From Haliotis asinina (taxonomy: Eukaryota > Mollusca > Gastropoda > Lepetellida > Haliotidae): a stretch of 64,000 nt of DNA. The notes beneath the pieces were generated by a model that had not been told where the DNA came from, searched no databases, and saw only the letters and a program-made list of their open reading frames with translations. The DNA is taken from contig NC_090283.1 in NCBI RefSeq assembly GCF_037392515.1, forward strand, positions 14,142,501 to 14,206,500, given 5' to 3'. Positions 34,492 through 63,419 of the stretch are shown here, in pieces (positions within the stretch are counted from its first letter, which is position 1; every line of letters begins with the position of its first letter). The position numbers and the translations under genes are program-made.

Positions 34492-37400
34492 TCACGGTAC
34501 ATAGATCTCAAAATTTTTCTTCAGGAAATTTGCTGGATTTGTGACATCTCTTTCAATCTGCGTCAAAAGACGTGGAGGAGGAGGTCGAGGGGGAGGGACT
34601 GCTGAAGAACGCTTGATTGTTTTAAATCTGAAAAATAAAATGGAAATGTTTACTATAAATTGTATATTCATAAACTTATCCTAACTCATGCCCTATACTC
34701 CTTCTTCAATTCAACCTGCTGACTGGAAATGTATCGCAAACAAAAACCTAAAAACCTTCGTTTGACGGTTGAGGTAACTCCTGGGAAGCATGCAGCATGC
34801 TCCACTACCTGCCAGCATGACAAACTCATTACTTACAGACCACTCTATATATAGCTGGAATACTGCTGACTGGAGTGAAAAATCAACTCACACACTCAGT
34901 GCCTGGGGACTTGGGAAGTAAGAAAGGAGGTGAGTATGGTTTCAGCAGTATTTCAGCAATATCACAGAGGGGGACACCAGAAATGGGCTTCACACGTTGT
35001 ACCCATGTGGGGAATCGAATCCATGTCTTTGGCATGACGAGCGAATGTCTCAACCAAAAGTTTTCTTTCAACAATCAAGGAGCAAGCCCGCATTCACTAA
35101 AACACAAATATTTCACACTAGTGGCCATTGAACTCAACACATGCCTCTCACAACACAAACCACCTACTTGATTCTCTGAGCCTCATCTGAATCTGTTGAC
35201 AGAGTGGGTCCAAGATCTCCAAAGGAGTAGGACTTGGTGGCGAAAGTCTTTCGTCTCTCCTCTGCGGAGTGTGTTGTAGGAGTGTGGAGTGAGGAAGTGC
35301 TTCCGCTCCGGTCCCGCCATAGCTCCTCTGATGCAGCCAGCTGGTCCTCCGCAGATAGAGTGGAAGGAGTGTCAATGGAGACAGGAGTGCCGACTGAGTC
35401 CTGCTTGAGAGTGCTCTGGGAGTCTGGGAGTGCATAGCGAAGATTCACTTTCATCATCTCTCCAAACTGAAATATATTAGCATTTTCTTACTTCTTTCAA
35501 GTAACAAAGATTTTAAACTCCACATGCTATGTTAACCATTTATGTCAGTTTTTGACAGGTACCCCTTCTCACTGACCAAGTAAATAAGGCAGAAGTAGTG
35601 TAGAAATGGTGAAATCAGTTTCATCTTATATAGATCAGTACTGCATTCCAGAAACTGTCAAGTCAGGAAACTTGTCTAATGACAGAGTCCATCCAGGCCA
35701 TCCAACAACCAGGGGAGGTAACTCTAAAGGTACAACCAGCCTTCTGGTACCTATCAAGTCACAAAACCTCTCCAATAATGAAATCTATCAAGTCCATCTT
35801 CAACCAAGGGAGATAACTCTAACTAGGTACAGCCTGTCTCCTGCAAACTGACAAGTCACAAAAGCATTCTAATATTGCAGTTATTTAGTCCCTGCAAGAA
35901 GCAAGGGAGAAAGGTCTTATTAAATAGACAGGTAAAGCCTGCCTTCTAGAAACTGTCAAGTCTCAAACATCTCTGATGGTGAACTCCATCCAACAGCCAA
36001 GGGTGGTAACTCTAATTAAATAGATAGGTGCAACCAAATTTCAACAAACTTTCATGTCAGAAAACTTCTCCAGTGATACAGTCCATCAAGGGAGGTAACT
36101 CTAATTAACACTTCCAGTTAGGTAAGTACATACAGAAGGTCAACAGTGACCAAAGTTTTGTATTTCAACTATGTATGTCGTACATCTCACCTCGTAAAGT
36201 CCTGTCTTCAGCAACTGGAAGGACACACTGACTGGCATGGTACAGCCTCGTGGACAAGCCCTGGAGAGGTCAGCATAGGTCACGTACTCATTTAACACAA
36301 AACAGAGAAGTATACAATCTGTTGATCTCCAAAACCTTCTGTCAGCAACTAAATGCTAATAGCTGAATCTTAATTTGTTTGCTTACTTTTTGATGCCACA
36401 CTGTTCCATCCATATGTCAGAAGTGTGTACACAACCGAATACAGTGATCAACACCATCAGCATCAGTCTACACAAGTGGGATACGGTGACATATTTCAAC
36501 CATGTCAGTGAGTCTGACCCCACACCCATCTTTCGCCTCTAACAAGTATGGTTTCCTGGGGACAATTCTGAACAAGATCTTCGCAGGTCAATTTGTCATC
36601 TTGACATTCAGGTGAGACTTTTTAAAGTGAAGATTAGCTGATCTTCTAACTGTGCAGCTGTGTCGGCTAGTATTACAATTACAGTTGAGTCAGTTGAGTC
36701 AGACATACAATCATAAGACACTGGCAAGTCCAAGGGTTGAACAATGAATAGCATTCCTTTGATACATGGGACAATGAATAGCATTCCCTTGACTCATGGG
36801 TCAAGGTCATGAGTGAGTGAATGAGTGAGTGAGTGAGTGAGTGAGTGAGTGAGTGAGTGAGTGAGTGAGTGAGTGAGTGAGTGAGTGAGTGAGTGAGTGG
36901 AATTTTTCACCACACACAGCCATCTGTAAATAACTGAGTCTGGACAATTAAGTGATCAACAGCATGAGCATCAATCCATACAAGTAAGATATGATGTCAT
37001 GTGTAAACCAACCCAATGAGCCTGATCATCCAATCCTGTTACTTGCCTCTTACAAGCATGGGTTACCGAAGATCAGTTCCAACCAGGATCTTCATGGGTC
37101 AGGTCAGTTATTGGAAAAAAATAGCAAATGATGACTCTTGTTAATACAGTCATGCACATAAAATTTAATATTAAAAGTTCCTTGACAATAGTATGAACAC
37201 TCCACAAGCCAGGCATGTAAGACCGACTTACCCCACATAAACATCTGGGTCGTGACACACCACAGAATTCTTCAAGTCTTCCAAGTGTTTCCTCGGCAGA
37301 ACATCCTCTGCTGAGCAACGAGAAAAAACATATATGGTAGACCTTAATTCAGCATTACATTTACAGTCTTAGCACTGAGGTTGATTAGTATGATGACTCT

Positions 37401-40400
37401 GGGTATAGTTACCAACATAGGGATGCTATTTCACAAGCTGTACTTGTGGCAGTAGCCTTGAGATGTCTATGCTAAAAGAAGGAATTGTGTCCACACTGTT
37501 GCTGGTCTTCATACACCTTGAAATGAGGTGAAGAGATTTAGACTGACTCATCAAGATCCCTCAATGTGGATATAGACTAACCAACAACCCGGAATGTGGA
37601 CACAGAGAGACTCACCAACATACCAGAATGTGGAAACAGAGAGATTCACAAACATCCCTAATGTGGACATAGACTAACCAGCATCCCTGAGTGTGGACAC
37701 AGACTTACCAACATACCAGAATGTGGACACAGAGAGACTCACAAACATCCCTAATGTGGACATAGACTAACAAGCATTCCTGAGTGTGGACACAGACTTA
37801 CCAACATACCAGAAAGTGGACACAGAGAGACTCACAAACATCCCTAATGTGGACATAGACTAACAAGCATTCCTGAGTGTGGACACAGACTTACCAACAT
37901 ACCAGAAAGTGGACACAGAGAGACTCACAAACACCCTAATGTGGACATAGACTAACAAGCATCCCTGAGTGTGGACACAGACTTACCAACATACCAGAAT
38001 GTGGACACAGAGAGACTCACAAACATCCCTAATGTGGACATAGACTAACAAGCATCCCCGAGTGTGGACACAGACTTACCAACATACCAGAAAGTGAACA
38101 CAGAGAGATTCACAAACACCCTAATGTGGACATAGACTAACAAGCATCCCTGAGTGTGGACACAGACTTACCAACATACCAGAATGTGGACACAGAGAGA
38201 TTCACAAACACCCTAATGTGGACATAGACTAACAAGCATCCCTGAGTGTGGACACAGACTTACCAACATACCAGAAAGTGAACACAGAGAGATTCACAAA
38301 CACCCTAATGTGGACATAGACTAACCAGCATCCCCGAGTGTGGACACAGACTTACCAACATACCAGAAAGTGGACACAGAGAGACTCACAAACACCCTAA
38401 TGTGGACATAGACTAACAAGCATCCCTGAGTGTGGACACAGACTTACCAACATACCAGAATGTGGACACAGAGAGACTCACAAACATCCCTAATGTGGAC
38501 ATAGACTAACAAGCATCCCCGAGTGTGGACACAGACTTACCAACATACCAGAAAGTGAACACAGAGAGATTCACAAACACCCTAATGTGGACATAGACTA
38601 ACAAGCATTCCTGAGTGTGGACACAGACTTACCAACATACCAGAAAGTGGACACAGAGAGACTCACAAACACCCTAATGTGGACATAGACTAACAAGCAT
38701 CCCTGAGTGTGGACACAGACTTACCAACATACCAGAATGTGGACACAGAGAGACTCACAAACATCCCTAATGTGGACATAGACTAACAAGCATCCCCGAG
38801 TGTGGACACAGACTTACCAACATACCAGAAAGTGAACACAGAGAGATTCACAAACACCCTAATGTGGACATAGACTAACAAGCATCCCTGAGTGTGGACA
38901 CAGACTTACCAACATACCAGAATGTGGACACAGAGAGATTCACAAACACCCTAATGTGGACATAGACTAACAAGCATCCCTGAGTGTGGACACAGACTTA
39001 CCAACATACCAGAAAGTGAACACAGAGAGATTCACAAACACCCTAATGTGGACATAGACTAACCAGCATCCCCGAGTGTGGACACAGACTTACCAACATA
39101 CCAGAAAGTGGACACAGAGAGACTCACAAACACCCTAATGTGGACATAGACTAACAAGCATCCCTGAGTGTGGACACAGACTTACCAACATACCAGAATG
39201 TGGACACAGAGAGACTCACAAACATCCCTAATGTGGACATAGACTAACAAGCATCCCCGAGTGTGGACACAGACTTACCAACATACCAGAAAGTGAACAC
39301 AGAGAGATTCACAAACACCCTAATGTGGACATAGACTAACAAGCATCCCTGAGTGTGGACACAGACTTACCAACATACCAGAATGTGGACACAGAGAGAC
39401 TCATTAACATCCCTAATGTGGACATAGACTAACAAGCATCCCTAATGTGGACACAGACTTACCAACATACCAGAATGTGGACACAGAGAGACTCACTAAC
39501 ATCCCTAATGTGGACATAGACTAACCAGCATCCCCGAGTGTGGACACAGACTTACCAACATACCAGAAAGTGGACACAGAGAGATTCACAAACACCCTAA
39601 TGTGGACATAGACTAACAAGCATCCCTGAGTGTGGACACAGACTTACCAACATACCAGAATGTGGACACAGAGAGACTCATTAACATCCCTAATGTGGAC
39701 ATAGACTAACAAGCATCCCTAATGTGGACACAGACTTACCAACATACCAGAATGTGGACAAAGAGAGACTCCCTAACATACCAGAATGTGGACAAAGAGA
39801 GACTCCCCAACATACCAGAATGTGGACACAGAGAGACTCCACCAACATACCAGAATGTGGACAAAGAGAGACTCACCAACATACCAGAATGTGGACACAG
39901 AGAGACTCACCAACATCCCTGAATGTGGACAAAGAGAGACATACTGACTTACCTGAATGTGGACACAGAGACTCGCCAACATCCCTGAATGTGAGTACAA
40001 ACAGACTCACTAAAGTCTCTGAATGAGGACTGAGAGACAAACTCACCAACATCCCTGTAGGCTGACAATTGGGTCTCCACGTTCCAGTACAGCTTCATAC
40101 TTAGGAAATCCTGGAGTCTGTTGACGATGTTGTATGTCAGAGTGAAGCTGAAGCAGTCAATGGTGATGACACAGGTCACATTAAGCATGAGATATATCAA
40201 ACTGAGTATTCAGTCCTGAATATTCAGGAAATGAACTACTGGCAAACAAGGATGCAAATGTAGGCTAGTGCAGGTGCAGTGCATGATGATGTAATTGACT
40301 GCACACAGCTGCACATGCCTTGCTCATAGGACTCTCACATGGTCTGTGTAGCTTCACCCATCGCACTACATTTGATGGCAGACAACCTGGGGCCCCTCAC

Positions 40401-43400
40401 TCACAATGGCAAGTGCCAGAGGGCGGCACTCATAAATGCAAATGCAGTTCAATTGTCAGGTGAGTGTTCAACTTATCCAGTTTGCCAGTAGTGAAGATTA
40501 TAAATGTTTTAAGCACATGCAAACTGTACAGATAAGGATATGATACATCAATCACCTGATAAATTGGTCCTTTCATCCTGTACATACTTTACCCCAAAAC
40601 ACCATACTTCATAAAACATTAACAAAATAACCACATATTTAAGACCACAAATGTTGAAGATCATGAATGATCTTCATGTTTTCTGAATATGCCAGCATGG
40701 AAAAATCAAGTCTAATATTTCAGCCTACCTTTCCCCAACCTTGGGCTGGGTGTTGCCAGTTATCGACACTGTAAACGGGGCTCTTCGTATTCGCAGTTTG
40801 GGCAGGCTGGTGAGAAACGAACACACAAAGTATAGAAACATTTTCTTTATGTGACACTATGGTGCTATTTGTTGATGAAATAAAATGAATTATCTTCTGT
40901 TCTGTTTTCATCACCCAAACAGATACAAAGGAGGAGGTTGGTCAAAACAGTATCAGATGGAAATGTCAGATGTGCAAACTACAGAAAACAAAATATTGAT
41001 ATATTAAAATGGCTGTGATCTGACTTGTGCAAATGGTAGACTAACCAAATCTCTTTTTCACAGATCCAATTTAAGTACCTAGGTTGTGACCAAGTTCATT
41101 AGTTTTGCATAATAAGTGAAAAGTGCATGTTTCTAGTCTCAAGTGAAAGTCTATGAGAATGTTTGTTGTAAGTTTGCAACATCTTTAGCAGCATCTTTAG
41201 CTACATCGTCTGATACTAGCTGACACACTGATACTAGCTGACACACTGATACTAGCTGACAGACTGATACTAGCTGACAGACTGATACTAGCCGACACAC
41301 TGATACTAGCCGACAGACTGATACTAGCTGACACACTGATACTAGCTGACAGACTGATACTAGCCGACACACTGATACTAGCCGACACACTGATACTAGC
41401 CGACAGACTGATACTAACCGACACACTGATACTAGCCGACACACTGATACTAGCCGACACACTGATACTAGCTGACAGACTGATACTAGCCGACAGACTG
41501 ATACTAGCCGACAGACTGATACTAGCTGACACACTGATACTAGCCAACACACTGATACTAGCCGACAGACTGATACTAGCTGACAGACTGATACTAGCCT
41601 ACACACTGATACTAGCTGACAGACTGATACTAGCTGACACACTGATACTAGCCGACAGACTGATACTAGCCGACAGACTGATACTAGCGGACACACTGAT
41701 ACTAGCCAACACACTGATACTAACCGACAGACTGATACTAGCTGACAGACTGATACTAGCCGACACACTGATACTAGCCGACACACTGATACTAGCTGAC
41801 AGACCGATACTAGCTGACACACTGATACTAGCCGACACACTGATACTAGCTGACAGACTGATACTAGCTGAAAGACTGATACTAGCCGACTGACTGATAC
41901 TAGCTGACAGACTGATACTAGCCGACACACTGATACTAGCTGACACACTGATACTAGCTGACAGACTGATACTAGCCGACACACTGATACTAGCCGACAC
42001 ACTGATACTAGCTGACACACTGATACTAGCTGAAAGACTGATACTAGCCGACACACTGATACTAGCCGACACACTGATACTAGCCGACAGACTGATACTA
42101 ACCGACACACTGATACTAGCCGACACACTGATACTAGCCGACACACTGATACTAGCCGACAGACTGATACTAGCCGACAGACTGATACTAGCTGACACAC
42201 TGATACTAGCCGACAGACTGATACTAGCCGACAGACTGATACTAGCTGACACACTGATACTAGCCAACACACTGATACTAGCCGACAGACTGATACTAGC
42301 TGACAGACTGATACTAGCCGACACACTGATACTAGCCGACACACTGATACTAGCTGACAGACCGATACTAGCTGACACACTGATACTAGCCGACACACTG
42401 ATACTAGCTGACAGACTGATACTAGCTGAAAGACTGATACTAGCCGACTGACTGATACTAGCTGACAGACTGATACTAGCCGACACACTGATACTAGCTG
42501 ACACACTGATACTAGCTGACAGACTGATACTAGCCGACACACTGATACTAGCCGACACACTGATACTAGCTGACACACTGATACTAGCTGAAAGACTGAT
42601 ACTAGCCGACACACTGATACTAGCCGACAGACTGATACTAGCTGACAGACTGATACTAGCCGACACACTGATACTAGCTGACAGACTGATACTAGCTGAC
42701 AGACTGATACTAGCCGACACACTGATACTAGCTGACAGACTGATACTAGCTGACAGACTGATACTAACTGACAGACTGATACTTGCTGAAAGATTTTCAG
42801 ATGTTTAAGTAGAAGAAAACTCCACATGAAAACCTCTGTCAGGCTTTCAGACATATTTTGAACTAAACACAAAATTCTAAAGTCAAACTCTGTCCGTAAT
42901 AATAGATTCCATTACTAATTAATCTGCTGCTTTGGTAAAAACTGGACCTACCATACCTGTCCTCAGAAAGACAAATATCAGAACAAATATCAGAAAGACA
43001 AACATTCATCATTATTACTATTAGCCTCTGTAATGCGTCATCCTAAAACATCTGCACAGTTATATTGACATGACAAATGAAGTGACTTACTTGAACACAG
43101 TTATTATTTCGGGTTTTTCACCAATCACATCTTTGTGACTCCACTTCAGAAACCCTTTCAAGGTAAGTTCCTGAAACATAAACTGAAAGATCAATTGTGT
43201 ACTTCACTTTCAACCTTGTTATACACATCAGAAAGTGAGTTTAGCTTTACGTCCTTTTCAACAATTTTGCAGCAACATCATAGTATGAGACACCAGAAAT
43301 AGGCTTCATACATTGTAACCAATTAGGAAATCAAACCCATGCCATGTCATGCTTGGCATGACAAGCAAACGCTTTGACCAACAGGCTAAAGTCTCCCTTG

Positions 43401-44138
43401 AACCCTCTCCCACCAAAACATTCAAATGAGTTGCCATGACTGTCACCCCCTTCGTCATTGCTCATTTTATAAAAAATTGATGGCTCTGAAGAATTTTTAG
43501 GACAAGCTTCATGTGACATGAAAATTGGATATAATATTTCAATCTCATTCTACAGAGTACTTTCCGTACAAAAGATATTTCATCTGAAGTGTGACCTCCA
43601 CTTATTTGTTCCATTACCTCAGTGTCAAGGTCATCAGTTGAGAGCATATATGCAAGGTAAGCTTATCCTGACCTCCACTCACCTGCTCCATGACCTCTGC
43701 ATCGAGGTCATCAGTTGACAATGTATATGCTAGGGACAGTTTCTCCTGACTCAGCAAAGTGACGGGGAAGGAGACTGAGTCTGACGACAGTGGGGAGATC
43801 AGACCACACCCACTTTCCCGGGAAAAGGGGCTGAAATGAGAAGTGAATGAGTGTCATTCATGGCTGTTCTAAGCAATATTCCAGCAATGTGCGGAGCACC
43901 CACGACATGGGCTTCACATTCTACCCATGAGGGGACTTGAACTCGGATCTTTAGTATGACAAGCAAACACCATGACCACCTCACCTCCCTATTAAATGAG
44001 ATGATGAATCTCCCCCAACCATCGAAACAACTGTGTCTTGTTTTATTTCTTTTATTTTATAAAACAGGCAACCTTATTTTCTTAAACAATATATGTAGGT
44101 ACAGAAATGAAAATTTGTTGAAAAATATTAGCTGACAA

Positions 44139-44214
<76 letters not shown>

Positions 44215-47200
44215 TGAAGTGTTATGATGCACATATCTCCATGCAACAAAGTATGTTCAAAGCGCTAACAAACTGATCATCATTATTACCCTGGATAACC
44301 CAAGCTGCCTGTTAGGCGTCACATGACTTTTATCTCACAGGTATCCATTTTCTGCTTATTGAAAAGAGGCAATTTTTTAACAAACTCAATCGCAGGACCG
44401 ACGTCCTAGAAACTCTCAGGAGCCAAACTGCCAAACACAGCCACCCATTCAAGGACTGTCCTAGCTTGACGGTGCTTAATTTCAACAGATTTGTGACCTG
44501 AGCACTACGCACAGGACCACTCACCACATGACAATCTACGATAACAAAAGTGACTTCTAACTGAATCCAAACCTGGCAATGAGGTCGCTGATGTATCTAT
44601 GTTTACCAAGAAACCTAACTGTGAAGATTAGGTGCCTGATTAGGTTCTTGTAAGCCTAGCCCATGCTCATCACAAGATGAGACTGCCTTGGTTTTCACAT
44701 GCTGTATCCCAATTGGTTTATCAATGATCATACTGTTGATTACTGTCTTACTCGTAGCTGGTCTAAACTCAATTATTCAGAGACCAAAGCCATAGAGCTG
44801 GAATATTGCTGGGTGAGGTGTTGCTGGTTAAACATCAAACAATGAATTAGTGATGTTGACATCAGCATGTCACTGGTTCAAAATAAAACCATAGACTACA
44901 GAGTATATTATATACAATGTAAGAGATGAATACTTTTCATTATCAGTGGAGTCAGAGTCGGTGGCCTCAGGTTTATCTTCCTTCTTGTTAGGGAGGATGC
45001 TGCAGTCGTGGATAAGGAGGGATTTCCCTGTCGTGTTGTTGACTGAAACCAAAATCAGTAAACGTCCAGGTTTCCTTAAAGATAATGCCCATAACAGGAT
45101 TAACCATAGAAGGGTCTCATCCTCGATAATCTCCATTTGTACATTCCAGTAAATCTCCACTAGTACCCTGGATGCTTGTACAGCTCAGCCCACTAATTTT
45201 GTTACCTCCCTTTGCTGGCATTTTATACAATCAGGTGTCTATGCTTGAAGTTGAGCATGCCAATCACAAGGCTCCTAGTATCACTCACTTCTTCTACTTT
45301 TATCTAACCAGCTGAACTTGGCCACACAATTGTTTGTGGCGGAGTACTAGGAAGTAGAATGGGTTCTTGCATATATTTTTTTATGGTTTCAGACCTGTCT
45401 GTATGATTTTTCTCCCTAAATCTGAGCAAACCTACATGGTTTTGTTGACACTGAAGCTCAGTTGTAACAGCTCATTTCACTGGCTACTGTGAGAATGCTG
45501 AGCCAGCGAAGGGAGGTAATAAAATTGCCGTAGATGTATCCGGGGTACTCGTCGAGATTTATCTGAAGGTATACCCTGGAGATTATCAAGAAAGAGAGGT
45601 ATGTGTGTAGGCAAAAGGGCTTGAAAGTCACATACAACATGATTACATAGTTTAGGTGGGCAAAATAGGTTGAATGTCATGCAAGAGTATTACATAGTAT
45701 AAGTTGGCAAAATGGGTTGAATGCCATGCAAGAGTATTACATAGTGTAAGTTGGCAAAATAGGTTGAATGTCATGTGGGATTATTACATAGTGTTAGTTG
45801 GCAAAATGGGTTGAATGTCATGCCAGAATATTACACAGTGTAAGTAGGCAAAATGGGTTGAATGTCACGTGAAATTATTACATAGTGTAAGTAGGCAAAA
45901 TCGGATGCATGTCATATGAGATTATTACACAGTGTAAGTAGGCAAAATCGGTTGAATGTCATGCGAGATCATGACAAAATGTAAGCAGGCAAAATGGGTT
46001 GAATGTCATGCGAGATCATGACATAATGTAAGTAGGCAAAATGGGTTGAATGTCATGTGAGATTATTACATAGTGTAAGTAGGCAAAATCGGATGCATGT
46101 CATATGAGATTATTACACAGTGTAAGTAGGCAAAATCGGTTGAATGTCATGCGAGATCATGACAAAATGTAAGCAGGCAAAATGGGTTGAATGTCATGCG
46201 AGATCATGACATAATGTAAGTAGGCAAAATGGGTTGAATGTCATGTGAGATTATTACATAGTGTAAGTGGGCAAAATGGGTTGAATGTCATGTGAGATTA
46301 TTACATAGTGTAAGTGGGCAAAATGGGTTGAATGTCATATCAAAGATTCTTACACAGATCGAAGCTCATGCTCCTGATCACTGAATTGCTTGATCCAGAC
46401 TCGATTATTTACACAATGAAACCATATAGCTGGAATATTGTGGAGTATGGGTAGGAAAACAAACCAACTTAAATCCCTAGGGACTCTTGTTTAGTGAATG
46501 AAGGTAAAACTGTGACTTACCCTGTAGAAGGAGCAGCTGACTACCCCCGGCCGGAACATGCTTCATACCAAGGACTGGCGGATTGATGACTGTCAGCTCC
46601 TTGCTCACTGTAAATATAACACAGATCTGAGTGAGTGAGTGAGTGAGTGAGTGAGAGAGAAAGGGAGTGAGAGAGAAAGGGAGTGAGAGAGAAAGGGAGT
46701 GAGAGAGACAGAGTGAGAGAAAGATGGTGCTGGGAAGCCCAGCCAAGTCAGGTAATATCAGGAGCTAAACCCACAAAAGTCTCGAGCATGCCCATGGAAC
46801 ATGATCCTTGGTATCTCCAGGGTATAGTGGAGATTTATCAGAACATTTACCAGACGTATGCTTCAGACCGATAATTTCATTACCTTCCTTTCCAGTCACA
46901 GCTGCAAAGGTTTGTTCACAGTGCGGCTCAGATTTTGGGGAAATCATTCAGACAAATTGACAGGTCCAAAACTTTTAAAAAAATATACAAGAACTCCTCC
47001 TTTCACAGTACCTCTGCAACCCGTAAAAGCCCATGGTAGATAAGTTCTCAACAACCCATGCTTGCTGTAAACAGTAAAAGGCAACTCAGCAAGAGGTGAC
47101 TAACAGGATCAGGTGGTGAGGCTCGCTGACTTGGTTGACACGTCATTGGTTCCCAGTCGCACAGATCGATGTTCATGCTGTTGATCACTGGATTTTCTGG

Positions 47201-52716: not shown

Positions 52717-55700
52717 ATGGCGCACGTTTCCTTAAATTCGTTTTTACAGTCGGTAAGATTATGTTTTAGTTGTTGACTCAGAGGACTGTTTTTGTAGTTT
52801 TGAATTTGTCAAGGCTGAACTCGTAAAGGAGCGTGACTTCCTCCAATAGTTAAGAATAGAAAAATCTCCTTAACATTTTTATTCCTATTTTCATGTGCAT
52901 TTGTCACGTGCACTAATGCCTGCGACAGAAAGCAAGCCAGTCGGGCCTAAAGAATCCATTACGCAGAATAGGGCTTTAGCACTACCTTGCATGCTGAAAT
53001 GGAAGAAACAAAACTTGCCTTGCAGTTGACAGCTTGTTAATACTCATTGTCCAAGTTTGTTTTTTTCCAGGTTGACTATGCTCTACAAAACAAAGATGGG
53101 CTATCAGCGGGGGTATGTATAATATTAGACTTTCATAAGTTAAGAAGGAACATACATACATATTGACAATTTTTAAAACCATCACAGTTCTGCTAAAGAA
53201 AAATGTAACTAATTTCTGTGCATATAAATTGTAGATAATCATGATCATAAATGATTATATAGACTGGACCTTAAGTTATGTGGCAAGGTGTAGAGTGACC
53301 GCACGGATGAGTTAACTTTTTTATCATGTGGGTAAGACATCTGATCTGGGATGATTCCAGCGTTATTCACTTCCAGAAACCACATGCCTGTTGCACATAC
53401 CTAAAGATTTATATGTCCTCTCATAACTGTGTTTGTTTTAGGCCAAAGGGGAATTGTGTACACAAGGTATTTTACTGAAAGATTTATCGTGCCTATGTAC
53501 CAGGATTTAATGGGACAGTGTGCATCCAGTATGCACAAATGTAGAGAATGGATGCCAAAAATAAATCACTGCGTCCATAGGGACGCCCAATATTATTCTC
53601 TGTACGTACTACACGTGTTACTTAACCAAGTGTTTGGTTGTTTCTGTCAGAGTTTTCGGGCGCATCATTTCATCCATCAGTCCACATGATCAATGATTCA
53701 TTCAAGGTTCTGAAAAAATGATAAAAACAATTCTCTATGCTGTATTCATAGGACCCTGATATAGTCCCCAAGGACCCAACTTATAAGTAATATACCAGTG
53801 AAGGTATGTGGTTGAAATCCTAGAGTAGGTCTTCAGCAAAACATGCTTGCTACAAAAGTCAACTATCCTTGTCGTAATAGGTTACTAATGGGATTTTGGT
53901 GGTGAGGCTCACTGACTCGGCTGACACATGTCATCAGCTCCCAATATGCAGATAGGTACTGATGCTGTTGATCACTGGATTGTTTGGTCCAGACTCAGTT
54001 ATTTACAGACCACCACCTTATAGCTGGAATATTGCTGAGTGTGATGTAAAACTGAACTCACTCACTGTTCACAGGAACTATTGTCATTTCAACATGCCCA
54101 CATTGCAAGTCCTCGGTGCCAGTTGGAACACCCAGAGTCACAAGTTCAGAGAGTCCTGGATCCCCCCTACGATGAAATGGTAGCAGCCCACATCAGGTAG
54201 GGTACTGTTATAACTGTATGCTTGTCATTGTATTGTGGTCATCACATGGTATAAAAGTATTTAAAGTATATAAGAGTAATGTATCGGGATATGCAGGCAA
54301 CAGTTCACGTGTCATGTGTATTCCATTACTGCTTGAATATCAGGTAGCATCACCACAAGCTTCATCTTTGAACTAGCTTCATCAAAACATTAACATCAGT
54401 AGTAGTCTGAAAATCAGGGACCAGATGCACAAACTCTGTTTCAACACAAACTTACAATGATCACAGAACTGTGATCACTTTGAGCAATGGACCCTGGCTT
54501 GCAAATATAGCATGCAAGTCTTCTCAAATGGACAGAAGTCATGTATTCATAACAATAAATATTATACATGAACCAGTGGAGAACAGTAATTCATAGTGAA
54601 TGAGTTTATTTTATGCCATATTGTGACGTTGTTGGAGATTTTGTTTTGTTTCAACAACTGTTTTGTGAATAATGATGCTTATCTACTCCAGATGCTGTTG
54701 GGCCGTTGCCAATCATGATTTCATTGAGGCGTATGGCTGTCAGGCTGTGGTTGTACAATATCCTTTACTCACCTGATATTTCAAGTGTTCATGCTGGCAT
54801 TTGTCTTGCCCCAGATATAGGGCTGAGTATTGCAGGGAATTTCGTATTGCGATATTTTGCAATGTGAAAGCATATATTGCGATATGTATTGCAGTATATT
54901 GCATAAAGTATTATTAAACAAAAAAATACTTATAATCAAGTTACTGCTTGATTTACAGCACAAAAAGAAAAAAGAAAATCACTATGCCTCATGAAGTTTT
55001 TATAACAACTTTTAATCACCTAATCACCCAGGTGAGGGTGCGGGTTCGAATCCCATCAGCTACTCAACCGAAAAAGTACTAGAATTTGTACTTTAGTTAG
55101 AAAATGAAATCCCAAAGATGACATATGTTGCATTTGACCATTTTCTAAACGACATTATGTAATGATGGTCTGTAAATAATCGAGTCTGTGCCAGACAATC
55201 CAGTGATAAATAGCATGCACATTGATCTGTGCAATTTGGAACCGACGACATATGTCAACCAAGTCAGGAAGCCTGACCAAATGATTCCACAAGTCGCCTC
55301 TTACAACATGGTCACCTTTTATGGCAAGCATGAGGTGCTGAAGGCCTGGTCTACCATGGACCTTCATTTGTGTATTAGAAGTGAAGATCTGGATGACTGT
55401 CAAGATTGGATGGTCAGGCTTGATAACTTGACACGTCATCGTATCCCCAATTGTGTACATGAATGCTCATGCTGTTGGTCACTTGATTGTAAAGACTTTA
55501 TACAGACTGTTGTCATACATGGAATAATAACTGACAGCAGCTTAGAACTAAACTAACCTGTGAATGTTTAAATATCCCCCAATGTAGGAAAAATGAGACC
55601 AGAAGGACAAGTGTTTGCTCCAGTTTGCTTCTCACAAACACATTTGTTCAAACCATGAACAGTAATCTAAAATGTCACATGCTGCACTGCAGATTTGCCT

Positions 55701-58700
55701 CCCTTGGATTAGTCAAACTCTTGTGATCATTGTTTCAAATCCTAGTTACTGCAAGTTCTGTTTCTAGTTGGCCATACCCAAGCTAATGGGTTTTTCTAAA
55801 CTCACTCTTTTCGAATGGTAGATAAATCTGAGTTTTAATTTTCATATGATTATTATCATGTAATAAATTATGAAGGGTAACTGTCCTTATCCACTAGCAT
55901 CTCTTAGTTTATTACTAAGATGTATGTCAGATGGTTGTTTGGCCATTACTCTATGTGAACCTATTCCAGGATTCATTATGCATATACACTGACCTTGACC
56001 TATAGCACAGCCTTCACCAAGGCCATGCAGAGTCAGAAAGAAGAGAACTGGTCCCTGCCCCTTATGTTCAGCGTGTGTCTTGATCTCCGTCGGTTCGCCA
56101 TCAGTGTGAGTACTGTACCTTTGTATTCCAGGATGGAAAATTTGCATTTTGTCTTTTAGAGAAGTTTTAATCTTTCAGCAGACAGGAATAATCTGAAAGA
56201 TATCTTGATGAAACCACAGGCAAACTGTAGCGCAAGTGGGGTTGCCCAGCGTAGAGAATATGACCAGTCTTCATAGTTCTTCAAAGGTTGGCAACACACT
56301 TCCCTCGCTTCGGTTCAAAAGGTATTTTTCGTGTCAAAATAAAATATCGCCACCATCAAAGGTACACTCACATTTCCTCACCAGGTTGTGATCTCCGATT
56401 TTCAACCCCATATTTGATAATTACTAACGTGAAATATGTTCTATTCAACATTTTAAGCGCCACTCGTGGTATTCAGTTCGTTCTTCGCCTCCATTACCCC
56501 TGCCAGCTTCCGGCTCAACGGAGTGAAGGAACAAGAATAAGCAGAAATTATAAAGATATACCACATTGCCTAAATTTATCATGATTCTGTTGGAATGTAT
56601 TTGTCTTAAGTGTCGGCGTTGTTGTTAGATCTTTTGTAACATTTATTCTACAATAAACACACTTCTGGCGCAGCGGGCGTATGAAGCATGGGAGGTAACT
56701 CTTTATGTATTCCACTCGGAATAATAACTTGTTCCTTCACTGCTTTGAACTGGAAGCTGGCAGAGGTAATGGAGGTGAAGAACGGTCTGATGTACCACGA
56801 GTGGCGCTTAAAATGTTGAATAAAACATATTTCACGTGAGTAATTGTTAAATATGGGGTTGGAAATCTGAGATCACAATCTAGTCAGGAATTTGGAGTGT
56901 ACCTTTGATGGTGGTGATATTTTATTTTGACACGAAAAATACTTTTTGAACCGAAGCGAGGGAAGTGTGTTGCCAACCTTTGCTCGCTTTGCTCGCATAT
57001 ATGAAGACTGGTCATATTCTCTACGCTGCGCAACCCCACTTGCGCTACAGTTTGCCTGTGATGAAACCTACTGGCACTACCCACTGGTGCCTGCCAATAT
57101 CACATGATGACACTTCAACAGACACCACACTCCTACTGACGTGATGCCACCCTTCCTCCGGACAAGACCTAACAACCCCGTCATCTTCACATCCACCTCA
57201 AACCCCCTTCACCTACCCCTTTCAAAACTTCTTGACTTATAACCACTCCTGGCAAGTGGCAACCTCCTTACACACAACTCCAGCAACCCTTTACATGCAC
57301 CCACTGACAAAATCTCTCCCACTGATATCTACCCCTGACAATACCATCTCCTGAAGGCCCACCCCTGACAATCCTGCTACACACAACAGTGGCAACCCGT
57401 GTCATCCCCTTCTGAAGACAACCCCGACAACACTGCTTCTTCTGACAGCTACCCCGATAATCCTCCTCCCCCCCTGGACAACCACCCTCACAACCCTGCT
57501 CCTCCCTACAACCACCCCGATAATCCTCCTCTCCCGTGAACAACCACCTGATAACACTGCTCCTCCCCACAAGCACCCTGACAACCCTACAGTCTCCTGA
57601 CAACCACCCCGATAATCCTCCTCTCCCGTGAACAACCACCTGACAACCCTGCTCCTCCCCACAAGCACCCCAACAAACCTGCTCTTCCTGACAACCATCC
57701 TGATGATGCTCCTCCCCTGGACACCCACCCTGAGAACCCTGCTCCTCGTGAAAACCACCCCGATAACTCTGCACCTTCTGACAACCACCCCGTTAACACT
57801 GCTCTTCCTTACAACCACCCTGACAATCCTGAACCTACTGACAACCACCCCGATCATTCTACTCCTCTGGACAACTACCCTGATAATCCTGCTCCCCTGG
57901 ACAACCACCCTGACAATCCTTCTCCCCTGGACAACCACCCTGACAATCCTGCTCCCCTGGACAACCACCCTGACAACCCAGCCCCTCCTGGCAAGCACCC
58001 TGACAGTGTGTATGACTGTTGCAGGCTGATGTCCAGGCGGTGATGAAGAGTCGAGGGAAGCCTGGGGAGAGGATGGAGAAAGCAGCTGAGCTACTTATGG
58101 GCTGCTTCCGTGTCTGTGCCAGTGACAAGTGAGTCACTTTTCTTTGAAAGGCATTTAGAAGTTATATAGATTAAGGAAACTAAGTTCTATGGATAGTCAA
58201 CTTCTCTATTGCAATGGGTGTGACGTTTCAGTGTCATCACTTGCTTGATAGTGGTGTTAGTACCTACACAGAAATGTTGCTCCCTTTGCAGTAAAGAAGC
58301 AGACTATCCATAGAACTTGGTTTTCCCTCAAGTATGTCACTTGTCTGTATCTAGAGGAAACTGTGTCACTTTGTAGATATATGGCTGTATTTAGTGTTGT
58401 TCATTCTGTCCTTTTAATCAGTGGCAGACACATCCAGTAAGTTACACTGTAACAGCAGTTCACTCAAGATATTTCAACTGACTGATGGCAGTTGTTGAAT
58501 CTTCAAACCAGTTACCAATTATCAGAAGTGTATACACACACAAAGCAACTTGATGTCAGTCGAGAATTATTCAGTGCTAGAAAACGAGGACATACATACT
58601 TTTATCATAGTCTGAGCTCTCGGACTCAGCCTTCTGACTGTTTGATCATTGGCTTCTGATTGCAAGGTGATTGTCTTCTGACTTATAATTGTCTCCTGAC

Positions 58701-61700
58701 TCTTTGATCATAATCATCTAAATGCTTGGTCAATTGTAAACCAAAAGTCAGTGTAATCTGTAATCTGATTGGTTGAAAAACATGATCAAATGGTATTAGA
58801 TGTCCAGAAACTGCAAGACTATTAACTGCGTATTGACACATTGAAACCTCGCAAACAATTGTTTTGTTGTGTCATTAACAGTGGTAACGTCATTCAAATC
58901 ATATTGTGACATAAAGTTAGAATGACATCACAAATGAGCTGCTCCAGATGTTGCCATGGGAACCAGCTGAAACGGCCTGCGGATGACACTTCACTGCTGT
59001 ACCCGTACTCGATGTAAACGAGTGCAGACAGTAAAACCCTTTGGTTTACTTTTGTGTCTACAATGTTGATAAACATCATGTGTTGGCCGATTTCCGGGTG
59101 TTATTGAGTATTTGAAGCACAGGAATATTTCATTTGAAACCTCCGGCTGATGCTGTTGGTTCCAAAATGCATTCCTGTACTTCAAATACTCAATAACATC
59201 CGAAAATTGGCCAACACATGATGGTTATGTCCTAATGGTCTTCTGAGCGTTTCATAATATTCTTCTTGGTGCTTGGTGAATGTCTTCTGATTGCCTTATG
59301 ATTGGTCTTTGTCTTTTGAGTCCTTGATGATTTTTTTGTCTGAGTGTTACGTTTATGAAGGTTTTCTATTATTGCTGTGCAAATTTATGTTAATCCAGTC
59401 GAGCTGCAGTGGAAGACTCGAAGAAATGGGGAATGTTGAATCTTGTCAACCAGCTATTCAAAATATACTTCAAGGTAGGCTTTCGTGAGTGAGTGAGTGA
59501 GTGAGTGAGTGAGTGAGTGAAGTTTTACATCGCACTTGGCAATTCTGCAGCTACATGGCAGTGATATGTGAATAATGAACTCTGGACCAGACAATCCAGT
59601 GATCGACATCTTGAGCATTGATATACACAGATGGTATGTGTCAACCACGTCAGCAATATCTGACCACCGGATGCTGTTAGTTGTATGATTAGAGAACACA
59701 TGCATATAACCCTTTGATCATCTATTGTAAGGTGTACTTTTTCAACTATTTGTCACTTCTACTATTTGTCACTTTTACTCCAGATCAACAAGCTTCACTT
59801 GTGTAAACCTCTAATTCGGGCCATTGACAGTCTGGTCATCAAGGATCGGTTCAGTCTCTCCCAGCTCATCACATACAGGTAGGTCTTTCTGTCTTTCTCT
59901 CCCAGTTCATGACATACAGGTACAGCTGTCTGTCATTCTCACCCAGCTCATCACATACAGGTTGACATGTCTGTCTCTCCCAGCCCATCACATACAGGTA
60001 CAGCTGTCTGTCTTTCTCTCCCATTTCATCATGTAAAGGTAGATCTTTCTGTCTCTCCAAGGACATCACATACAGGTACAGCTGTCTGTCTGTCTCTCCT
60101 GGTTAATCACATACAGGTAGATCTGTCTGTCTGTCCTGATTAGTCACATACAGGTATATCTGTCTGTCTGTTCCAGGACATCACATACAGGTAGATCTTT
60201 CTGACTCTCCCAGAACATCACATACAGGTATATCTGTCTGTCGCTCCCATTTCACCACATAAAGGTAGATCTCTCTGTCTGTCTCTTCTGGGTAATCACA
60301 TACAGGCAGATCTGTCTGTCTGTCTCTTCTGGTTAAACACATACAGGTATATCTGTCTGCCTCTCCAGGTTCATCACATACAGGTAGGTCTGTCTCTCCC
60401 AGCTCATCACATGCAGGTAGATCTCTCTATCTGTATTTCCCAGCTCATCACATACAGGTAGATCTCTCTGTCTGTCTCTCCCAGCTCATCACATGACGAT
60501 ATATCTCTCTGTCTGTATTTCCCAGCTCATCTAGAGCCAACTAGAATGCCTGGGATTTCAAGGATCTCAAAACTAGTATCACTAGATGCATGCATTGAAG
60601 GTGCAAGGTCTCTTTCTGGCAGATGGATCAGATTGTATGTTCTTTGTATTCCTTGATGTACATTACAAAGGACTTGCTTCTGCTGACAGGTACTATGTGG
60701 GGAGGAAGGCGATGTTCGACAGCGACTACAAGGCAGGTATGTGTTGATGTGTACACACTCCATCATTCTCTGCCCACAGAGTTGACTCCTGTCATTTCTT
60801 CCTATGTAACTTGTGTTCTAATATGCCCATATTACCCATTTCTCATAAAAGCCCCAAAGGCCAAAAATGTTAACTTGAATTATCTCCCTTCTTTCTGTTG
60901 CCTCTGATCACATGTTACATTGACTTAGCTCCATTATGGCATGGAGTTAGTTGATCAACGTGCAATGGATAGATTGGGTATTTCATGTTTAACTGAAAAT
61001 CAGAAACCAGTGCAATATAGAGTGTAGGATTCAAAGGACAAGATGTATTTCTTTATGTGACACTTAAGACATTTAAAGGCAAATGACATTCAAAGAATTG
61101 ATTTAAAGGCAAGTTTGTTGGTTGTCAACAAGGAGGGTGGAGACGCCATTGATCCTGTCTAAATGAAACGTTTGCACATCATCATTGGTGAATGAGCCGT
61201 TTTGAAACAGCGTCGCTGATTGCACAACTTAATCTGATTGCATTCAATCATGACTCCAGAACGTGTGCACAATGAAAGGGCCATATTTGAACAGAGGTTA
61301 CATAGGAAGATATGACAGGTGTAACCTTTGTGGGACACTTGACTAGATGTAGCAGCATGTGGGAGTTCAGGTAGAGAAGGTCCCTGTGTTCAGTTCTCAA
61401 GAAGATCTGGATCTGTGGGGAAGTCCAGAAGTTTGTATTTTTTATGAGACCCCTGAGTATTACCCGTGCTTGTATTCCTCATCTGTCTGTTGAAAAAACA
61501 TCCTTAATCCACTCTTTACAATGTTATAAATCCGTTCCTGACACTGTCGATAATCCATGCTTAGCACCGTTGATATTCTCACAACACTGTTGATAATCCT
61601 CTCTTAATAATTGATAATCCTCTCTTAACACTGTTGATAATCCTCTCTTAACATTGTTCATAATCTCTATTAACACTGTTGATAGTCCACTCTTAACAAT

Positions 61701-63419
61701 GTTGATAATCCATGTTTAACACTGTTAATAATCCTCTCTTACCACTGTTAATAATCCACTGTCAACACTGCTGATAATCCACTTTCTGTACTTCTACTAT
61801 TTGTGTTTTGTGTTGGCTTCAGCGGAGGAATATCTCACATTTGCATTTGAGAGGTGTCATCGGCAGTGCAAGAAAAACAAACGTCTCATCCTCATCTACC
61901 TCATCCCGGTCAAGATGCTGCTAGTGAGTGTTACCCATGAACATCTGGGTTAGATTAGGTTAAGGAAAGACCACGAGTTACAGGATCTGGTGTTCACACA
62001 CACCAACTCAAACCCTGACCCTGACCCTGACCCTGACCCTGACCCTGACCCTGACCCTGACCCTGTGGTAATTTGGATACGAAGATAAGTGGCTGTGACC
62101 CTGATGCTGGTCACATGTCATCATATGCCATAGATTGATGCTCATGCTGTTGATCACTGTATTGTCTGGTCCAGGTTTGATAATTTACAGATTGCTGCCA
62201 TATGAGTTTAACATTGGTGAGTGTGGCTTAAACACACAAAAGTCTGTTTGACTCTCCAAGAGTACATGTCCCTGCAGTGATGGAAGACAATCACCCAATC
62301 TGTTACGTCTGTTACTAACTTTCATATACTTTGTTCATGTTTATGAATTCATATTTATTGGACCTTGTCTTCTATCTCTTCAGGGACAGATGCCAACGTT
62401 CAGTGTTCTACACAAGTACAACCTCAAGCAGTTTGCTGATGTTGCACGGGCGGTGAGGTAAGGGAGATAATGCATTCACAAAGTCATGAGTTGGCAGGGA
62501 CCAGCAATTCCTCCCTCTCCACAAAACCATTTCCCAGAGGAGCATTTCTATCTAAACCTTGGACCTCAGGTGTGATTTCTGTGCACACCTCCTGATCCAA
62601 AATCCTATGCCCTTATTCTTGAAAAGTTCATAGCCCTAAGAATGCTTAACTTTGACCGCAACCAGTGTGTTAAGAATGGGCTTAAGAAGTCTGTGAGGCT
62701 GTGAACACTGTCATCCCTGCTTAAACACTGCTATGATGCTCTAACACTGTCATCCCTTCTTAAACACTGCTATGATGCTCTAACACTGTCGTTCCTTCTT
62801 AAACACTGCCATGATGCTCTAAGACTGTCATCCCTACATAAACACTGCCATGATTCTCAAGCACTTTCATCTTTGTTTCCAACACTGACATTTTTAGTTC
62901 TTTCATCCCTGTCTCTAACACCGTAATCCTTGTCTGTAACCTGTTTATTTAAAACACTGTTTCTGACTCTATCATGACTATCTCAGACACTTCCCTCTGT
63001 GTTTCCCAGTTCAGGCAACCTACTGCAGCTGAACACAGCTCTCCTGAAACATGAAGCGTTCTTCATCAAGTGTGGTATCTACCTGATCCTGGAGAAACTG
63101 AAGATCATCACTTACAGGAACCTATTCAAGAAAGTGTAAGTCAGACATGAAGCATCCAATCATATAGCCACGTTGTTAAAGTGTTGGTCAATGTCACGCC
63201 AAGGAGCCGTGGACATTTCCCTATGTGGGTAGATTGTGTGTCTGGTATCTCCTGTTGGAATACTGCTGGAATATTGGTTGTTGACATTCACAACATTCAC
63301 CTCCTCTGTCACATCACCATGGTGATGCATGCATCTGTGTTTGTTACAGATATTTGATTCATCAGAAGAACCATCTCCTGCCCCTCGAAGACTTCACAAT
63401 GGCCCTGAGACTCATGGAT
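52717..63419 (+). CDS. PCID2: PCID2, PCI-domain subunit of the TREX-2 mRNA export complex (3' end outside the window)
   Basis: Thirteen exons join in phase for 352 codons: 52717-52752, 53071-53112, 54075-54196, 54692-54757, 56009-56105, 58025-58128, 59399-59474, 59784-59878, 60690-60736, 61823-61923, 62384-62457, 63010-63135, 63350-63419. The protein starts [12 protein letters not shown] (human MAHITINQYLQQ) and includes [77 protein letters not shown] and [20 protein letters not shown]. Human PCID2 is 399 aa, so about 45 residues are missing at the right edge. PCID2 (yeast Thp1) pairs with GANP/Sac3 and DSS1 at the nuclear pore to export mRNA. All introns are GT-AG except intron 4, which is AT-AC. 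Introns 5, 8, 9 and 11 hold minisatellites. Confidence 0.97.
53800..54064 (-). repeat. Family A repeat abutting the PCID2 exon 3 acceptor
   Basis: Inverse copy running through GATGCTGTTGATCACTGGAT and AGCTGGAATATTGCTGAGTG to AAAACTGAACTCACTCACTG. Its end lies about 10 bases before the exon 3 splice site (TTCACAG/GAACTATTG), so it supplies much of the 3' splice-site region of intron 2. Confidence 0.85.
55165..55372 (+). repeat. Family A repeat, partial
   Basis: From GTCTGTAAATAATCGAGTCT to GGACCTTCAT, inside the AT-AC intron. Confidence 0.8.
55395..55555 (-). repeat. Family A repeat, inverse partial copy
   Basis: Contains TGAATGCTCATGCTGTTGGT and AACTAAACTAAC in inverse orientation, facing the copy at 55165-55372. 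Confidence 0.7.
56215..57059. mobile_element. Foldback DNA element in PCID2 intron 5
   Basis: Inverted arms of about 320 bp (56215 to ~56536 and ~56731 to 57059) flank a ~195 bp centre. The left starts CACAGGCAAACTGTAGCGC and the right ends GCGCTACAGTTTGCCTGT. GATGAAAC occurs on both sides (56207-56214 and 57060-57067), an 8 bp target duplication as in hAT elements. No coding capacity. Confidence 0.88.
57400..57995. repeat. ~28-30 bp C/A-rich minisatellite in PCID2 intron 5
   Basis: About 20 copies of a unit such as GACAACCACCCTGACAATCC followed by TGCTCCCCTG, ending about 30 bases before the exon 6 acceptor. ORFs in both directions are repeat artefacts. Confidence 0.92.
58176..58325. repeat. 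150 bp inverted-repeat element
   Basis: Arms with AAGTTCTATGGATAGTC and GACTATCCATAGAACTT. On the minus strand the interior holds TGATGA-CACT-GAAACGTC, a collapsed version of the hammerhead-like core at 51.5 kb. A fragment of the same family is at about 32040-32090. Confidence 0.7.
59077..59222. mobile_element. Short foldback MITE in PCID2 intron 6
   Basis: Arms of about 53 bp: CATCATGTGTTGGCC...GAGTATTTGAAG at the left and CTTCAAATACTC...GGCCAACACATGATG at the right, with a ~40 bp centre. No clear target duplication. Confidence 0.8.
59485..59690 (+). repeat. Family A repeat with (GTGA)n head, partial
   Basis: (GTGA)n at 59487-59520, then AGTTTTACATCGCACTTGGC and CAGACAATCCAGTGATCGAC, starting 12 bases after the PCID2 exon 7 donor. 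Confidence 0.85.
59846..60535. repeat. Minisatellite in PCID2 intron 8, derived from the exon 8 splice donor
   Basis: About 16 copies of a ~38-42 bp unit: TCTCTCCCAGCTCATCACAT, ACAGGTAGATCT, GTCTGTCTG. The first unit is the true end of exon 8 (SLSQLITYR) plus its donor at 59879. Most later units retain CATACAG/GTAGAT or CATACAG/GTATAT. Confidence 0.95.
61495..61790. repeat. ~27 bp minisatellite in PCID2 intron 9
   Basis: About ten copies of a unit such as CACTGTTGATAATCCTCTCT followed by TAA, ending shortly before the exon 10 acceptor region. Confidence 0.9.
62008..62064. repeat. (CCCTGA)n hexamer tract in PCID2 intron 10
   Basis: About nine perfect copies of CCCTGA; one base different from the telomeric CCCTAA. 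Confidence 0.95.
62090..62235 (-). repeat. Family A repeat, partial
   Basis: Inverse copy with GATGCTCATGCTGTTGATCA and TGTCTGGTCCAGGTTTGATA. Confidence 0.8.
62690..62960. repeat. ~39 bp minisatellite in PCID2 intron 11
   Basis: Copies of TTAAACACTGCTATGATGCT, CTAACACTGTCATCCCT, becoming degenerate to the right. Confidence 0.85.

Follow-up and report, generated by a model that had tools for sequence, protein, structure and literature searches.

A minisatellite in intron 8 of a Haliotis asinina TRAPPC14-like gene that probably grew from a duplicated 5' splice site

A TRAPPC14-like gene on the minus strand of Haliotis asinina DNA carries a long tandem array that begins at the 3' end of exon 8 and continues into the following intron. 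The question raised by this locus is whether the array was born from the 5' splice site of exon 8, and what its many donor-like copies mean for splicing. We analysed it in a stretch of 64 kb, here called the window, which also contains the PCID2 gene on the plus strand. Exon 8 of the TRAPPC14-like gene (40047-40147, minus strand, 101 nt) ends with AGGGATGTTG/GTGAGT; the plus strand reads ACTCACCAACATCCCTG at 40041-40057, which on the gene strand is CAGGGATGTTG/GTGAGT. The border at 40047 is very likely the true exon end, since 11 modelled exons form a single open frame and a partial join, with exons 2-4 left out, matched the Pfam family TRAPP14_C (28.1 bits at a cut-off of 28, E 2.5e-6). Against solved structures, the partial join gave two chance-level matches only (E 0.31 and E 0.51). 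Intron 8 was placed at 37311-40046 (minus strand, 2736 nt) and exon 9 at 37232-37310 (minus strand). Exon 9 has a CAGCAG acceptor of the NAGNAG type (37305-37316), where either choice preserves the frame and leads to VAEDV or VEDV. The modelled donor of exon 4 at 44934 (minus strand), AAA/GTATTC, is very weak with 0.93 bits, and this border may be wrong.

The array was delimited with Tandem Repeats Finder and wrap-around alignment. It covers 37545-40057 on the minus strand, matching the array of about 2.5 kb described in the initial annotation, and its edge lies 11 nt inside exon 8. When the array was aligned to the junction, 81 units with a mean length of 31.2 nt were obtained, including the unit in the exon. 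The units near exon 8 are simple monomers. In the interior, sets of three units form a higher-order repeat of about 92 bp, and longer periods of 277 and 369 also occur there. The presumed founder unit is the junction segment itself (40035-40068, minus strand), comprising 22 nt of exon and 12 nt of intron.

The likeness between junctions and introns was measured by aligning donor segments (-40 to +20) and acceptor segments (-20 to +40) to the remainder of the intron that they border. In total, 20 introns of the TRAPPC14-like gene and PCID2 were analysed, and 200 dinucleotide shuffles of each intron served as controls. The exon 8 donor reached a score of 38 with a match from -22 to +12 (28/34 identical), and the best of its shuffles reached 34. 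In 3000 further shuffles, this score was reached once. The match is in register: the last 22 bases of exon 8 agree at 18 positions with an intronic 22-mer that precedes a GTRAGT. None of 2097 exonic 22-mers attained 18, and the best of 21 other exon ends attained 10. When the other 21 donors were compared with intron 8, the highest score was 28. The array of intron 8 therefore resembles the 3' junction of exon 8 far beyond chance, and the correspondence of junction and repeat subunit proposed in the initial annotation is borne out by the alignment.

Exon 8 was not the only junction that behaved in this way. Copies that contain exon sequence, reach the junction and score at least 38, above 200 of 200 shuffles, were found for 3 of the 20 donors. 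The PCID2 exon 7 donor scored 66 (best shuffle 35), with 42/48 bases identical from -28 to +20, and the TRAPPC14 exon 5 donor scored 55 (best shuffle 26), with 41/50 identical from -36 to +14. No exon-containing copy exceeded all shuffles at any of the 20 acceptors in both genes. Two further candidates were set aside. The TRAPPC14 exon 10 donor scored 26 against a best shuffle of 25, but its match, located 235 nt away, ends 3 nt before the junction, so that it was not counted. At the acceptor of PCID2 exon 7, a duplicated stretch from -20 to -4 (27 against 22) is purely intronic with no exon part.

PCID2 exon 7, the seventh modelled exon (59784-59878, plus strand), ends with CTCATCACATACAG/GTAGGT. 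When 168 joined residues of the gene were compared with PCI domain-containing protein 2 (8r7j_B), which we take to be the human protein, an E value of 8.9e-84 was obtained, making the identity of the gene secure. A second minisatellite (59854-60531, plus strand), apparently derived from the junction, spans the end of exon 7; its 41-bp unit consists of exon end, donor and intron start. The exon segment copied into it codes for 10 residues that align without a gap to PCI domain-containing protein 2. Given this gapless conservation, the exon is most simply taken to be older than the array, and copying from exon to array is well supported in PCID2. The third case is a 77-bp tandem duplication with two copies (43592-43750, minus strand), which includes the end and donor of TRAPPC14-like exon 5 (43683-43830, minus strand). 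In its second copy the GT is changed to AT. This duplication looks like the earliest stage of such an array.

We then asked whether the two large arrays occur elsewhere in the 1.14-Gb assembly. The search covered one piece of each, scored only the best candidates and skipped very common words. With the intron 8 array (401 bp used) 10 matches were obtained, with the PCID2 array (381 bp used) 3, and every one fell at the array's own locus. A dispersed or inserted repeat as the source is thus unsupported, and within the reach of this search neither large array was copied from an element dispersed in the genome.

The donor strength of the copies was scored with a simple 5' splice-site matrix, which gave 8.65 for the real exon 8 donor. 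By this matrix, 27 GT sites in intron 8 score at least as high as the real donor (23 TTG/GTAAGT, 3 TTG/GTGAGT and 1 CAG/GTAAGT; 9.9 per kb), and only 7 such sites were found in about 19.3 kb of 19 other introns. The 'dozens' of subunits close to or better than the real donor in the initial annotation are thus about two dozen. The strongest is CAG/GTAAGT (39947-39955, minus strand) with a score of 12.61, a perfect consensus 94 nt downstream of the real donor (+94). The sequence CACATTCAG/GTAAGT at 39952 (minus strand), within one diverged array unit, looks like a site of recursive splicing, with an exon of zero length. Among the 53 GT sites of the PCID2 array, a single one attains the score of the real donor. 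A score of at least 4 is reached by 15 of its sites, of which 13 lack the G at +5. Intron 7 of PCID2 has 9 AG sites that are acceptor-like and score no lower than the median of the real acceptors (11.1 per kb, compared to 1.27 per kb in 18 other introns). Many units of this array combine an acceptor-like CTCTCCCAG with a donor-like CAG/GTA, and so form a train of exon-like units of 14 nt.

The initial annotation had also proposed that the gene could make exon 8 variants with longer 3' ends, or that redundancy might protect the site. Read-through from exon 8 into the intron passes 32 codons before it meets an in-frame stop at intron base 96. The 21 candidate donors nearest to the exon lie within 700 nt, and among them the frame stays open only at +36 and +48, both of which are weak sites. 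Use of the +94 site would shift the frame and lead to a stop further on, and with the remaining 18 candidates the early stop would be kept in the message. These frame outcomes nearly exclude longer exon 8 proteins, and decoy use would be unproductive.

Minisatellites built from a splice junction are a known but rarely reported kind, named 'mirages' in amphioxus, and the H. asinina arrays belong to that kind. At all three cases in the window, the unit contains exon and intron sequence across an authentic boundary, and the array sits at an authentic junction of a coding gene, with an overlap of 11 nt at exon 8, 25 nt at PCID2 exon 7 and 68 nt at TRAPPC14 exon 5. Splice signals are repeated as donors in intron 8 and as acceptor-like sites in PCID2 intron 7. 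Amphioxus mirages are described for Adh3, the globin genes BflGb6 and BflGb9, TnC and PGBD5 (PMC3087553, PMC3902484), the idea having been applied to PGBD5 in the second (PMC3902484). According to the first, those in Adh3 and the globin genes carry AG/GT signals in many of their repeats and are unstable in length; they evolve in concert within a cluster, the boundary units escape homogenisation, and RT-PCR suggests regular splicing, which is said to be undisturbed (PMC3087553). In their unit across the exon-intron boundary and in the repeated splice signals they are like the arrays described here. They differ in belonging to another phylum, whereas the H. asinina array has a trimeric interior, about 80 units and 27 sites that equal or exceed the real donor in the simple matrix. 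Moreover, the amphioxus cases involve both 5' and 3' boundaries, but those of the H. asinina window only donors.

A human counterpart is the 31-bp VNTR of CBS, c.1444_1467+7(16_21), which by its notation has 24 exon and 7 intron bases and 16-21 repeats at a donor (PMC2630376), comparable to the 22 + 12 of the exon 8 unit. It is known to be polymorphic, whereas the length of the exon 8 array comes from one assembly. In intron gain by tandem duplication, a duplication over an intron-exon boundary likewise adds splice signals, but a new intron results there, whereas the copies in the window are contained in an intron that already existed. No molluscan mirage was found in the literature searched, Haliotis intron minisatellites included, a coverage that has most subscription papers outside it. 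One abalone report describes a minisatellite in intron 3 of a TSSK1-like gene. Neither this report nor one on earthworm metallothionein led to a further parallel. The present cases extend splice-junction-seeded minisatellites beyond human and amphioxus, with three within 64 kb.

We consider it probable that the intron 8 array is a minisatellite of the mirage type, born from duplication of the exon 8 donor, and that its decoy donors are by-products. A tandem duplication would have inserted into the intron a copy made up of the last ~22 bases of exon 8, the 5' splice site and ~12 bases of intron, as the homology suggests. Repeated slippage or unequal exchange could then have raised the number of units to about 80, with homogenisation turning the interior into the 92-bp trimer. 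A duplication across a donor keeps a donor on the exon side; if the spliceosome still uses that one, the mRNA would be the same and the copies would be intronic. The gene should tolerate such a duplication because the exon-side donor is untouched, and splice donors may in this way be permissive birthplaces of minisatellites. Separate events of the same type presumably occurred at PCID2 exon 7 and TRAPPC14 exon 5, where the copies would have mostly lost their donor strength. The decoys would cost at most some unproductive mRNA, since nearly any use of them leads to a premature stop. This suggests a route by which a minisatellite can be born without harm to its gene. Several results count against the mirage account: neither array has a significant gradient of similarity, exon-spanning arrays are no more frequent than a simple model of random placement predicts, and the pattern is absent at 60 testable donors elsewhere in the genome. 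The +94 site counts against a by-product, since for a perfect-consensus donor beyond a weaker real one harmlessness is hard to assert.

The proposal of the initial annotation that the array grew from its own 5' splice site accordingly divides into two parts. The junction likeness and the matches confined to its own locus stand; the direction from exon to array, in TRAPPC14, is inferred. Units farther from the exon were not significantly less similar to the junction, either in the intron 8 array (rho -0.12, p 0.28) or in the PCID2 array (rho -0.30, p 0.23), and because neither array has a significant gradient, the polarity of the TRAPPC14 founder is argued by analogy to PCID2.

A different reading gives the decoys a function. 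The train of donors would bind U1 or capture splicing and so generate unproductive TRAPPC14 mRNA, with the array length tuning the output. It is favoured by the 27 sites that score no lower than the real donor, among them the perfect consensus at +94, by the premature stops that would follow from their use, and by the CBS VNTR, which the title of Lievers 2001 reportedly links with reduced CBS activity. In a more specific form, copy number and donor strength would set the loss of mRNA to poison splicing, chiefly at +94, making the array a length-variable rheostat of TRAPPC14. The loss of donors in the companion cases, where nearly all GT sites of the PCID2 array fall short of the real score and the exon 5 copy has no GT, looks like decay rather than maintenance, and homogenisation alone accounts for the 23 identical TTG/GTAAGT. 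Moreover, amphioxus mirages are reported without disturbance of splicing (PMC3087553, PMC3902484). We regard a functional train as unlikely and its rheostat form as decidedly doubtful. The intron offers a natural test of how the spliceosome chooses one donor when about two dozen copies of the same or greater strength lie in that intron.

The opposite direction would be that the array arose within the intron or was inserted, then spread into the exon edge and converted the end of exon 8 to repeat. Consistent with this, no significant gradient of similarity leads away from the exon, and the end of exon 8 seems little conserved, because the alignment with the human protein does not extend to it. 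Against it, PCID2 has the same architecture with a conserved exon, and within the reach of the genome search the pieces of the arrays matched nowhere else. An origin in the intron is on this evidence rather improbable, and birth from the exon 8 donor is preferred.

Very unlikely is a recent gain of intron 8 itself by tandem duplication of an exonic segment: short words are alike at both edges, with CAGAGGATGTT at the start of exon 9 and CAGGGATGTTG at the end of exon 8, but the start of exon 9 has no excess similarity to intron 8 (score 15, z -1.5). A chance likeness of a GT-rich repeat to the donor consensus is hardly credible given the shuffles, the 22-mers in register and the gap between the own donor and the next, even though the exon-only likeness of exon 8 is weaker when register is disregarded (score 24 with z 3.2, where the best of 100 shuffles gave 25).

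How common such arrays are was estimated with a genome survey based on exon matches of DEAD, Cpn60_TCP1 and Myosin_head. From 221 listed matches (44 + 52 + 125), 80 loci were used (30 + 30 + 20, with DNA and 1.5-kb flanks), in which 60 donors (41 + 19) and 56 acceptors (42 + 14) were testable, the others having no site that passed the score filter. A positive had to lie above 100 of 100 shuffles and score at least 34. None of the 60 donors and none of the 56 acceptors was positive, and the same procedure applied to the window recovered all three cases. The myosin loci are not independent, since 14 of the 20 lie in one cluster on contig C5, and the comparison of 3/20 in the window with 0/60 is post hoc, because the window was picked for one of the three. 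Since the survey elsewhere gave no positives, mirages are not everywhere in the H. asinina genome, and those of the window may form a local cluster. Tandem arrays make up 16.5% of the bases of the window and 4.2% of those of the first 60 survey loci, where the loci, unlike the window, are centred on exons.

Below the floor of 34 yet above the shuffles were the donors of L031 (score 32, match +4 to +20, intron only) and L028 (27, -39 to -23, exon only). In a pass with minus-strand loci unreversed, L006 showed an intronic copy of the intron end without exon (score 47, best shuffle 29), L009 a TGAG run, L031 an ATC run, and L061 and L027 weaker matches; among these five, no exon-spanning tandem was found. 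At a DEAD-family exon (L005:2114-2369), an array with a 75-bp period begins about 10 nt past the likely donor, with no clear copy of the exon.

The placement of the arrays was compared with a simple model of random placement. The two genes contain 17 non-redundant arrays, and 8 of these are no more than 50 nt away from an exon, where 4.08 were expected (p 0.027). Three span exon ends, with 2.07 expected (p 0.34), and for donor-spanning arrays 3 compare with 1.01 expected (p 0.069), neither of them significant. The enrichment of arrays at exon ends is weak.

Several further arrays were observed in the window. Four stop 4-39 nt upstream of an exon start and do not enter the exon (57421-58005, 59741-59779 and 61505-61783 on the plus strand, 46628-46724 on the minus strand). 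In intron 6 of TRAPPC14, an 18-bp array of about 87 copies (41210-42783) contains long open frames of 586 and 401 aa on the minus and 230 aa on the plus strand; it is not derived from the junction, as it starts 307 nt past the donor. Intron 3 of PCID2, as modelled (54758-56008, plus strand), preserves the reading frame when taken as AT-AC (ACA/ATATCCTTT ... GCAC/AGCC) and, by its consensus, presumably resembles a U12-type intron.
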